Source of the DNA: Candidatus Limicola stercorigallinarum
GTDB taxonomy: Bacteria > Actinomycetota > Coriobacteriia > Coriobacteriales > Coriobacteriaceae
DNA: 64,000 bases
Assembly (NCBI GenBank): GCA_018711625.1
Contig: DVID01000024.1
Coordinates: 1 to 64,000, forward strand
Reading direction: 5' to 3'
The notes under the pieces were generated by a model, which saw only the letters and a list, made by a program, of their open reading frames with translations, was not told the origin of the DNA and ran no database searches. Position 1 is the stretch's first letter, and each line of letters opens with the position of its first letter. Below, one piece after another: positions 18,824-54,744 of the stretch. The position numbers and the translations under genes are program-made.

Positions 18824-19360
18824 ATGGGCAACAAGTATCTTATTGTCATCGATATGCAAAACGACTTTGTGGATGGCGCGCTCGGCACGCCCGAAGCGCA
18901 GGCCATTGCCGATGCCGTTGTTGAAGAGGCAAAATCCTTCGACGGCACGGTTGCCTTCACGCTCGACACACATGGCGAGAACTACCTCTCCTCGCAGGAA
19001 GGCGCAAACCTGCCCGTCCCCCATTGCATCAAGGGTACGCCTGGCTGGCAGCTCATCCCTGCGCTCGACAGCGTAGCCCATGAACGCAACGCGCGTATTT
19101 TTGAAAAGCCCACCTTTGGGTCAACTGATCTTGCCGCGTGGCTGCAGGCCGAAAACGCCGCGAACCCCATTGAATCCATTGAGCTGGTAGGTGTGTGCAC
19201 CGATATTTGCGTGGTATCGAACGCCCTGCTCATCAAGGCGGTGCTGCCTGAGGTCTCTCTCGTGGTGGACGCTGCGCTCTGCGCCGGAGTCACGCCCGCG
19301 GCACACGAGGCCGCCCTTGCGACCATGCGCAGCTGCCAGGTGCAGGTATTGAACGCATAG
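18824..19360 (+). CDS. Isochorismatase-family cysteine hydrolase, nicotinamidase-like
   Basis: 178-residue hydrolase of the isochorismatase superfamily. The catalytic triad is visible as Asp10 (IDMQNDF), Lys95 (FEKPTFGS) and Cys129 (VGVCTDICV). Asp48, His50 and His67 (DTH; PVPHCIKGTPGW) match the metal site of nicotinamidases. Conversion of nicotinamide to nicotinate for NAD salvage is therefore the leading guess, although related amidases share the motifs. GGAGG lies about six bases upstream of the ATG. Standalone; the element at 19399-19612 follows it. Confidence 0.85.
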   Translation: MGNKYLIVIDMQNDFVDGALGTPEAQAIADAVVEEAKSFDGTVAFTLDTHGENYLSSQEGANLPVPHCIKGTPGWQLIPALDSVAHERNARIFEKPTFGSTDLAAWLQAENAANPIESIELVGVCTDICVVSNALLIKAVLPEVSLVVDAALCAGVTPAAHEAALATMRSCQVQVLNA

Positions 19361-19398
19361 GGCAGAGCGCAAAGGCAGTTTTTTCACACGAAGCGGTT

Positions 19399-19612
19399 AT
19401 TTCTAGACAGTTAGTTCAGATATGCACGATTGCCAGCAAGCTACGTGGAAGGCGAACGCGCTAGACTATCTAAATGCTAGATGACTGCATACCCCAATTG
19501 CGCATTTCCCGCTGTTTCCAACAGTTTTGAGCAGCGCTAAGTAACGTGGCGCGCGGCCCCAAGGCGAGAGGCCGCGCGCCATCGTTCATATCTGAACTAA
19601 CTGTCTAGAAAT
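19399..19612. repeat. 214-bp element bounded by a perfect 26-bp inverted repeat
   Basis: Arms 19399-19424 and 19587-19612 are exact reverse complements (outer part ATTTCTAGACAGTTAGTTCA). They enclose 162 bases in the gap between the nicotinamidase-like gene and feoB. The interior contains an 11-bp perfect GC-rich hairpin (19550-19560 with 19570-19580, GGCGCGCGGCC). No ORF and no clear target-site duplication. Candidate MITE-like element or invertible segment. Confidence 0.75.
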
Positions 19613-19642
19613 CAGAGTGCGAGCAGAAAAAATGGCTCAAGC

Positions 19643-22003
19643 CTATGCCAGACCGAGCGCCGCACCCGCCACGCGCACGACAAAAGCCACAATCCAGGCC
19701 ACACCGCACTGCATAAGCACCACCCAGAACGCATAACGACCGCCAAGCTCGTTTTTAACAGCCGAAACTGCTGCCACGCACGGCGTATAGAGCAGTACAA
19801 ACACCAAAAACACCACGGCGGTGAGCGGCGAAAATAGCTGCGACAGAGCAGCAGTTGAACCACCCATGAGCACCGTCAACGTGGCAACCACGTTCTCCTT
19901 GGCTCCAAAGCCAGCCACCAAAGCAGCAGCGGCAATCCACGAACCAAACCCCAGCGGCGTAAACAAGGGCGCAATCAGTGTTCCCAACGCGGCGAGCATG
20001 CTCTGGCCCTGGTCAGACACCACGTTGAAGCGAATGTCAAACGTCTGCAGGAACCAAATGACCACGCTTGCCACAAAGATGATGGTAAATGCCTTTGTAG
20101 CAAAGCCCTTTGCCTTGTCCCACGCAAGCAGCAGCGTGGTTTTTGCGCTGGGCAATCGGTAGTTGGGAAGCTCCATCACAAACGGCACCGGGTCACCCTT
20201 GAACGCCGTGTGCTTGAGCACCAGCGCCACCAGCACGCCTACCACCATGCCCGCAACATACAGGCCAATCATCACGAGCGGCGCATAATCGGGGAAAAAC
20301 GCCGCCGAAAAAAGCGCGTACACCGGCAGCTTGGCCGAACAACTCATGAACGGCGTGAGCATCACCGTCATCTTGCGGTCATGCTCTGAGGGCAACGTAC
20401 GCGTAGCCATAATGGCAGGTACCGAGCAGCCAAATCCAATGAGCATTGGCACGAAGCTCCGCCCCGAAAGACCGAGCTTGCGCAGGATCTTGTCCATCAC
20501 GAAGGCCACGCGCGCCATGTAGCCCGAATCTTCAAGCACGGAAAGCAGCAGAAACAGCACCACGATAATGGGCAAAAACGAAAGCACGCTGCCCACGCCA
20601 GCAAAGACACCCTCAATAACGAGGGAATGCACCACGGGATTCACGCCAAAGTTGGTGAGTGCAGTGTCCACGACGTTGGTGAATGCTTCAATACCCATCT
20701 CGAGCAGGTCGGAGAGACGCTGGCCCACCACATCAAAGGTCAGCCAGAACACAAGTGCCATGATGAGAATAAACACCGGGATTGCCGTGTATTTACCAGT
20801 AAAGATGCGGTCGGCGGCCACAGAACGCAGGTGCTCGCGGCTCTCGTGCGGCTTCACAACGCTCGCACCGCAAACGCGCTCAATAAAGCTGAAGCGCATA
20901 TCGGCCAACGCCGCCATGCGATCACGACCAGACTCCTCTTCCATCTGACGGATGATATGCTCCACTGTCTCGATCTCGTTCTGATCGAGAGCGAGCGCAT
21001 CAAGCACGAGCTTGTCACCCTCGATGAGCTTGGTTGCAGCAAAGCGCACCGGAAGGTTCGATGCCGCTGCGTGGTCTGCGATAAGGTGGATAAGGCCGTG
21101 GATGCAGCGGTGCAGCGCGCCGTGGTCGGGACCGTCAGGAGCGCAGAAGTCTACGCGCCCGGGGTGTTCGCGATAGCGCGCCACATGGAGCGCGTGCTCA
21201 ACCAGCTCTCCAATGCCCTCGTTTTTTGCGGCCGAGATCGGCACCACGGGAATGCCAAGCGCCGTCTCGAGCGCGTTCACATCCACCGTTCCGCCGTTTT
21301 CTGTGAGCTCGTCCATCATGTTCAAGGCGAGCACCATCGGGCGATCGAGCTCCATAAGCTGCAGCGTAAGGTAGAGATTGCGCTCGATATTGGTGGCATC
21401 CACGATGTCGATGATTGCGTTGGGCTGCTCGTCCAAAATAAACCGGCGGCTCACCACCTCCTCGCTTGTATAGGGCGAAAGCGAGTAGATACCAGGCAGG
21501 TCGGTGATGGTGACGTTGGCGTGTCCCTTGATCTGGCCGTCCTTGCGGTCCACGGTAACGCCCGGGAAATTGCCCACGTGCTGGTTGGAGCCAGTAAGCT
21601 GGTTAAAAAGCGTTGTCTTGCCGCAGTTTTGGTTGCCCACCAAAGCAAAGCTCAGCTGAGCACTCTCGGGGAGTGGGGCCGTACCTTCACGACGCGGGTG
21701 TGCCGGCTCCTCTCCAAAAGCAGGATGGGCCGAGGTGCTTGCGATAGGATTTTTGCGCGGGCTGTTGTGCGCATCGTGCACGTCGGTAACCACAATGCGT
21801 GCGGCGTCGGCGCGGCGCAGCGTAAGCTCGTAGCCTCGCAGGCGAATCTCAAGCGGGTCACCCATGGGGGCATATTTCATCATGGTGACCTCGGTGCCCG
21901 GCGTAAGCCCCATATCGAGAATGTGCTGTCTGAGCGACGAATCGTCCGATTCTACCGACTCAATAATTGCATCTTTACCAATCTCGAGGTCATCGAGCTT
22001 CAT
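19643..22003 (-). CDS. feoB: Ferrous iron transporter, FeoA-FeoB fusion
   Basis: 786-residue inner-membrane Fe(II) importer. Residues 1 to about 75 are a FeoA-type SH3-like domain (MKLDDLEIGKDAIIESVES, MGLTPGTEVTMMKYAPMGDP). A low-complexity linker follows, then the FeoB G-protein domain with P-loop GNQNCGKTT near residue 120, GNFPGVTVDRKDG, DLPGIYSL and NMMDE. The membrane part carries the Gate motifs (FGCSVPAIMATRTL and MSCSAKLPVYALF) with conserved cysteines. Fusion of FeoA to FeoB occurs in several anaerobes. No separate feoA or feoC is seen. An iron-responsive repressor site is expected upstream but not identified with confidence. Confidence 0.95.
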   Translation of the reverse strand: MKLDDLEIGKDAIIESVESDDSSLRQHILDMGLTPGTEVTMMKYAPMGDPLEIRLRGYELTLRRADAARIVVTDVHDAHNSPRKNPIASTSAHPAFGEEPAHPRREGTAPLPESAQLSFALVGNQNCGKTTLFNQLTGSNQHVGNFPGVTVDRKDGQIKGHANVTITDLPGIYSLSPYTSEEVVSRRFILDEQPNAIIDIVDATNIERNLYLTLQLMELDRPMVLALNMMDELTENGGTVDVNALETALGIPVVPISAAKNEGIGELVEHALHVARYREHPGRVDFCAPDGPDHGALHRCIHGLIHLIADHAAASNLPVRFAATKLIEGDKLVLDALALDQNEIETVEHIIRQMEEESGRDRMAALADMRFSFIERVCGASVVKPHESREHLRSVAADRIFTGKYTAIPVFILIMALVFWLTFDVVGQRLSDLLEMGIEAFTNVVDTALTNFGVNPVVHSLVIEGVFAGVGSVLSFLPIIVVLFLLLSVLEDSGYMARVAFVMDKILRKLGLSGRSFVPMLIGFGCSVPAIMATRTLPSEHDRKMTVMLTPFMSCSAKLPVYALFSAAFFPDYAPLVMIGLYVAGMVVGVLVALVLKHTAFKGDPVPFVMELPNYRLPSAKTTLLLAWDKAKGFATKAFTIIFVASVVIWFLQTFDIRFNVVSDQGQSMLAALGTLIAPLFTPLGFGSWIAAAALVAGFGAKENVVATLTVLMGGSTAALSQLFSPLTAVVFLVFVLLYTPCVAAVSAVKNELGGRYAFWVVLMQCGVAWIVAFVVRVAGAALGLA

Positions 22004-37627: not shown

Positions 37628-37772
37628 AAAATCGATGCGGTTATCCGACGTTTTGGGTACCCGCCTCGAGTAGAGTGGTCTTTTCGCAAAACAAAAGCGC
37701 AGGTAGATGCGTTGTGCGTTTTGCGTATACTCAACAGGTAGGAGCTAAATGTCGGATAACCGCATCGATTTT
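37628..37772. repeat. Type A intergenic element, copy 1
   Basis: Perfect 22-bp inverted arms (37628-37649 with 37751-37772, extending about 4 more pairs inward with one G-U) enclose about 100 bases. The core shares GAGTAGA (37668-37674) and, 21 bases on, AAACAAAAGCGCAGG (37689-37703) with copy 2 at 54602-54744, while the arms do not match that copy. Both copies have the same spacing and orientation. It lies after the terminator of the second binding-protein gene. Confidence 0.8.
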
Positions 37773-47313: not shown

Positions 47314-47464
47314 TGGACAAAAAACCGAGAAGTCGGCGATTTTGTCTGCCTTCCGATGTTTATGCATAACGCTATCCTGGGGCTTTGCCGCCCGATGCTC
47401 CGCGGTGGAGCGATCGCACCGCCAAAACCCAGGAATCATCGCCGACTTCTCGGATTTTTGTCCA
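47314..47464. repeat. 151-bp element bounded by a 27-bp inverted repeat (type D)
   Basis: Arms 47314-47340 and 47438-47464 match at 26 of 27 positions (arm core CCGAGAAGTCGGCGAT). The 97-base interior folds again: a left segment at about 47376 (CCTGGGGCTTTG) pairs imperfectly with a right segment ending at about 47432, and GCTCC at 47396 pairs with GGAGC. The whole unit can form one long imperfect hairpin. No ORF of note. Confidence 0.75.
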
Positions 47465-54601: not shown

Positions 54602-54744
54602 AAATCTTTTCGATTTGTTGCAGTTTGGAGCGCACCCTCCGAGTAGACTGACCTTTGCGCGAAACAAAAGCGCAGGCCACAGCGTTGCGCTTCAGCCGTG
54701 TACTTTGCAAATCAGCCTCAAACTGCAACAAATCGAAAAGATTT
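54602..54744. repeat. Type A intergenic element, copy 2
   Basis: Perfect 26-bp inverted arms (54602-54627 with 54719-54744) enclose 91 bases. The core has GAGTAGA (54641-54647) and, 21 bases on, AAACAAAAGCGCAGG (54662-54676), the same two blocks at the same spacing as copy 1 at 37628-37772. The arms (beginning AAATCTTTTCGATTTGTTGC) are unrelated to those of copy 1. Confidence 0.8.

Follow-up and report, generated by a model that had tools for sequence, protein, structure and literature searches.

The window, a stretch of 64,000 nucleotides from Candidatus Limicola stercorigallinarum, harbours an inverted repeat between a nicotinamidase-like gene and a FeoA-FeoB fusion gene, with the 3′ ends of both genes facing it, as the initial annotation had placed it. 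The 26-bp perfect repeat reported there is present (positions 19399-19424 are fully complementary to 19587-19612) and extends to arms of 35 nt at 94%, lying 144 nt apart, and the GC-rich hairpin said to lie inside the segment was confirmed as a 12-bp hairpin. The assertion that such arms exceed chance was also borne out, as the chance expectation for the 22-bp arm core in the window was 0.00 occurrences at ≤3 mismatches. Moreover, no inverted repeats of comparable score were found in mono-shuffled (0.8 Mb) or Markov (0.4 Mb) controls, and the window reached an inverted-repeat score of 29 against a peak of 17 in 15 Markov copies of it. The repeat was thus real, but it had been described too narrowly, since the flanking T6 and A6 tracts and the recurrence across the genome were missed. 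These tracts lie symmetrically about the arms; most of the copies from Enorma and from the genus of the window have them, and the Collinsella copies lack them. Among relatives, the gap between the nicotinamidase-like gene and feoB contained elements of other families in genomes G006, G002, G008 and G003. In G001, G016 and G020 it held terminator-like hairpins, and in G014 neither of them.

The repeat belongs to a dispersed, non-coding, intergenic family of Coriobacteriaceae gut bacteria (F1), with the arm core TTCAGATATG. In the assembly that contains the window (G000; 1.96 Mb, 49 contigs), 8 F1 copies were found on 8 contigs, spanning 206 bp from arm to arm (207 bp in one of them), together with a ninth, variant copy on contig C6. 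The arms were near-invariant among these copies, while the interiors had diverged except for a common central stretch (Table 1). F1-related elements were present in 8 further genomes of Coriobacteriaceae, and none that was credible appeared outside those nine genomes among the 397 genomes of the order, which were searched at one per species. The hosts comprise the window's genus, Collinsella tanakaei strains, C. massiliensis, Enorma massiliensis, E. burkinafasonensis and uncultured Coriobacteriaceae. In public genomes, the spaced arm pattern was found at 66 loci, about 10 of which were scattered singletons in other phyla, near the estimated chance level; an exact search with a 21-bp arm gave 0 matches there, because the arms drift by species. 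These further copies refute the fallback of the initial annotation, a simple hairpin without other copies. The genes flanking the elements were in tandem in 46 cases, convergent in 24 and divergent in 23, with no orientation bias, and the element positions at carB and prs were kept across genera. A local cluster of eight F1 copies in 123 kb was observed on contig C10 of genome G034 (109-233 kb), away from dnaA. Origin-linked partition sites were ruled out, as the dnaA positions did not match the element clusters, and so was a viral origin, the 15-mer matches in viral contigs being unpaired and due to chance.

Table 1. Features of the F1 locus and further elements of the same build in the window.
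Feature	Position	Strand	Remarks
Nicotinamidase-like gene (isochorismatase fold)	18824..19360	+	PF00857, 3e-26
Outer T6 tract	19379..19384	+	14 bp outside left arm
F1 element left arm	19399..19433	+	Perfect over 19399-19424; conserved in 8 genome copies
F1 interior	19434..19577	.	Length fixed; 40-58% identity (ungapped) among copies of the window's genome
Central conserved stretch	19487..19531	-	Minus strand CTCAAAACTGTTGGAAA..GGGGTATGC; common to most F1 copies of the window's genome (alignment)
GC-rich 12-bp hairpin	19547..19581	+	Specific to the window copy; other copies without conserved inner structure
F1 element right arm	19578..19612	-	Perfect over 19587-19612; conserved in 8 genome copies
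Outer A6 tract	19627..19632	+	14 bp outside right arm
FeoA-FeoB fusion gene	19643..22003	-	Flanks the F1 element
F4 element	37628..37772	.	Arm AAAATCGATGCGGTTATCCGACGTTT, centre motif AACAAAAGCGCAGG
F3 element	47314..47464	.	Arm TGGACAAAAAACCGAGAAGTCGGCGAT
F2 element	54602..54744	.	Arm AAATCTTTTCGATTTGTTGCAGTTTG, centre motif AACAAAAGCGCAGG

The lengths of the F1 elements, taken from CAGATATG to CATATCTG, fell only within 146-147, 156-159, 166-170, 177-181 and 187-189 bp (98 copies, nine genomes), with a vector strength of 0.877 at a period of 10.45 bp (n = 98, which includes one overlapping false pair (L116, 156) that was later removed). The control given most weight was the comparison of orthologous copies (39 pairs), whose lengths differed by 0-2 bp in 21 pairs, 9-13 in 9, 19-21 in 7 and 32 in 2. 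These differences correspond to 0, 1, 2 or 3 whole helical turns with no intermediate values (P < 5e-6 against uniform differences, a value that is only indicative because the pairs share genomes). Other families also stepped by one turn, with lengths of 126-127/138 and 160/181-182/192 (F7 and the CTGGCTAA family). Between orthologues of the C. tanakaei strains ET30 and ET10, identity was 89% in the arms, 63% in the interiors and 78% in the flanks, which are partly coding. As the arms and the whole-turn steps were kept and the interiors diverged, the arms and their phase are maintained at the sites of the copies themselves. The steps of ~10.5 bp, combined with the diverged interior, suggest that the arms are probably read as double-stranded DNA by some factor that requires helical phase. 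Concerted gene conversion could help to conserve the arms, but alone it would not yield whole-turn length steps. Continued binding with a benefit to the host, a penalty on site decay and frequent turnover are all candidate causes for the retention of arms and phase in old copies.

F1 is accompanied in G000 by at least eight further families of similar build with other arms, three of which are represented in the window, where their inverted repeats are perfect or near-perfect. An unbiased inverted-repeat scan that covered 436 kb from G000 and 400 kb from E. massiliensis found many elements there and none in the Markov control, and the elements of G000 could be sorted by arm into families F2-F9. 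The centre motif CCTGCG[CG]TTTTGTT occurred 27 times in G000, compared to 0 for the reversed control, and 22 of these occurrences marked the middle of an inverted repeat, its ends typically being 62 and 69 bp away; one centre motif was common to several arm families. F5 had recent copies (78-95% identical over their full length). Some of them were observed nested within F2-like elements, both being amplified together (L371, L375 and L377-L379 in G000), and the flanks of F5 were rejected as part of the F5 element for belonging to the host F2-like element.

In the uncultured Collinsella genome G086, a 401-aa ORF beside prs was flanked by two F1 elements, and homologues of this ORF adjoined elements in many genomes. 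Its treatment as an unrelated, DUF559-like passenger was dropped, as it adjoins elements everywhere. A profile search gave six paralogues of this putative nuclease in each of the genomes G000 and E. massiliensis. Of these twelve, nine had a standard-size element within 400 bp and three lay between two elements with matching arms, while a fourth was flanked by a pair of identical 66-bp inverted repeats of a shorter element type (L407, G006 C2:125340; AAAGCGTCGCATAACTC). Among background ORFs of the two genomes, an element lay within 400 bp of 36 out of 208 (17%) and 20 out of 234 (8.5%), and elements lay on both sides of 3 out of 208 and 0 out of 234, two of those three sitting in nuclease units. 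Furthermore, five arm families of G000 each appeared beside their own paralogue (F1 on contig C6, F2 on C28, F3 on C48, F4 on C20 and F6 on C26), and no paralogue was assigned to F5, F7, F8 or F9. The F1 nuclease locus of G000 was inferred from contig C6, which ends just beyond its F1 element, because prs is absent from this assembly; the nuclease encoded there is 57% identical to the one at prs in E. massiliensis. The F2-associated copy (L401, G000 C28:7402-8553) may be decaying, because one in-frame TGA lies over the profile match.

At the prs site, compared in 30 genomes, an element was present in 10 of the 11 loci with the nuclease gene versus 1 of the 19 without it (Fisher P = 4e-6), although such P-values overstate independence because the genomes and loci are related. 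One of the 19 loci lacking the gene (ET10, L251) is on a truncated contig, with the gene and element on another one. The exceptions were G002, with the gene and no element, and C. tanakaei ET30, with an element and no gene, the ORF having been lost. The element remaining in ET30 combines the left outer flank of the first G086 element with the interior of the second, which is consistent with recombination between the arms of a G086-type pair. In a comparison of G086 (L117 3022-4754) with G008 (L103 2995-3163), a 1.56-kb segment with the nuclease gene was missing from G008, and the junction fell within the arms of two F1 elements in direct orientation. G018 and G008 had F1 copies with the nuclease gene absent at prs, as far as this locus is concerned.

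The partner gene is predicted to encode a nuclease of ~350 aa with a C-terminal domain of the Vsr/DUF559/EDxHD type. In a nine-member alignment, residues E209, D260, E271, R289 and G297 were invariant, the two glutamates and the aspartate pointing to a catalytic site. The alignment matched the catalytic domain of the homing endonuclease I-Bth0305I (3r3p, E = 9e-5) and the MTES_1575 nuclease family (5.5e-6), and the predicted structure (pLDDT 89.7) resembled phage homing, Vsr and DUF559 nucleases, the individual Foldseek matches in the PDB having weak E-values. Taken on predicted fold and putative catalytic residues, the protein would belong to the EDxHD/Vsr-fold endonucleases. I-Bth0305I, an EDxHD homing endonuclease with a similar catalytic domain, was reported to form a dimer on a target site almost 60 bp long, so such enzymes can read long sites (PMC3943268). 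In contrast to it, the proteins described here are not associated with an intron or intein, but are encoded by chromosomal paralogues that stand alone and are accompanied by dispersed paired elements.

The explanation that we favour, with moderate confidence, is that these are non-autonomous elements whose inverted arms are putative sites of a cognate Vsr/DUF559/EDxHD nuclease, by which they would probably also be spread. The nuclease would bind the arms, bridge both arms of one element, cut DNA and drive copying. The F1 nuclease gene would be present once per genome, ancestrally adjoining prs with a neighbouring F1 element. A dimer or larger complex of the nuclease would hold both arms at once across the looped interior, and this joint grip would oblige the arms to stay in phase on the helix, leaving most of the interior free to drift. 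Families F2, F3, F4 and F6 would repeat the same logic with other arms and paralogous nucleases. For the spread, cutting by the nuclease would be followed by repair that copies the element into new intergenic DNA, the element-nuclease-element arrangement being the complete form and solo elements a derived one.

The arms and phase retained in situ, the positions at carB and prs kept across genera and a phasing that is classic for DNA looping would also be expected of host chromosomal or regulatory sites. A host protein could bind them as looped operators or as sites that organise the nucleoid, and the nuclease-like proteins would act as site-specific DNA binders and not as mobility enzymes. We consider this somewhat unlikely, since gene orientation was unbiased, the elements did not cluster at dnaA, F5 had been amplified recently and the invariant glutamates and aspartate point to catalysis.

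The MITE-like character proposed in the initial annotation holds as far as a multicopy, non-coding, intergenic inverted-repeat element is concerned, but no target-site duplication was found and helical phasing is unexpected for a MITE. Likewise, searching genomes with the arms returned further copies, but neither a clean empty site nor a target-site duplication. Ordinary MITEs would be short insertion-sequence derivatives that depend on a classical transposase for their movement, and the nuclease genes would be mere neighbours or passengers. The terminal inverted repeats, the length of 140-260 bp and the non-coding, intergenic nature of the elements suit them, as do the F5 copies, with their 78-95% identity and their nesting in F2-like elements, and the size and repeat range is within that published for MITEs, which are likewise multicopy and shorter than 500 bp (PMC10969869). 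Nonetheless, this origin appears unlikely. The F2-F9 flanks showed no clear target-site duplication, old orthologous copies kept arms and phase around a nearly randomised interior, which is unexpected of dead MITEs, several arm families had one centre motif in common, and genes and elements co-occurred. In addition, no full-size F1-armed transposon or related transposase-bearing insertion sequence was found in G000, where the arms matched only as close pairs and nuclease units were found instead. Membership among the MITEs is therefore formally partial, no transposase-bearing relative or direct repeats having been found, and the elements also differ from MITEs in being phased, in keeping their arms in situ and in their link to a non-transposase nuclease.

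A bidirectional transcription terminator or structured RNA is very unlikely. The long stem (MFE −101 kcal/mol, z −7.7) and the terminator-like hairpins at the same intergenic site of some relatives would agree with it, but the arms were near-invariant and not covarying (covariation term −0.14), the stem lacked a downstream U-run, no Rfam match was found, half of the copies were away from gene ends and helical quantisation has no rationale in RNA. The phase-variable invertible segment also put forward by the initial annotation, which the perfect inverted arms and short interior might suggest, is hardly credible, given that the orthologues in G008 and G086 have a single orientation of the interior relative to the flanks, and so no switch, and that the placement is unbiased and not promoter-like, convergent neighbours being as frequent as divergent ones.

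Among known repeats, the Correia elements of Neisseria are also short intergenic inverted-repeat elements, with an internal protein site. Neither a cognate nuclease nor phased spacing is known for them. The closest working analogue of the elements and their putative nucleases would be the REPIN/RAYT system of Pseudomonas and E. coli, in which the elements spread in trans (PMC3116915). Both are intergenic, with a conserved arm that occurs twice in inverted orientation around a less conserved spacer, and both present several arm types per genome, each adjoining its own single-copy gene of nuclease type (F1, F2, F3, F4 and F6 here). The enzyme is not a RAYT, however, as RAYTs are Y1 (HUH) tyrosine transposases of the IS200 type, and the one found here is predicted to be a Vsr/DUF559/EDxHD-type nuclease. 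Moreover, the arms are of 26-35 bp here, compared to the short REP palindromes of REPINs, and are spaced by about 130-210 bp in steps locked to helix turns, while no helical spacing is described for REPINs in PMC3116915.

More tentatively, and with something short of even confidence, the elements may represent a new class of bacterial paired-repeat systems of non-transposase origin, in which each Vsr-type nuclease, with its own population of phased elements, would synapse both arms of one element and keep or copy it by break and repair, and in which arm specificity would have diversified to give many families per genome. A literature search, conducted largely without subscription literature, returned nothing relevant on an association of paired repeats with such nucleases, on Collinsella repeats or on DUF559 mobile elements. 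If true, the life style of REPINs and RAYTs would have arisen again with an unrelated enzyme and would therefore be a general evolutionary outcome, not a peculiarity of IS200-like transposases. Helix-turn quantisation would then be a signature, readable from sequence alone, of both arms being gripped together, and the many arm families per genome would offer natural pairs of a nuclease and a 26-bp site for studying the evolution of long DNA specificities. Finally, the repeats that fill the intergenic space of common gut Collinsella and Enorma would gain an annotation.
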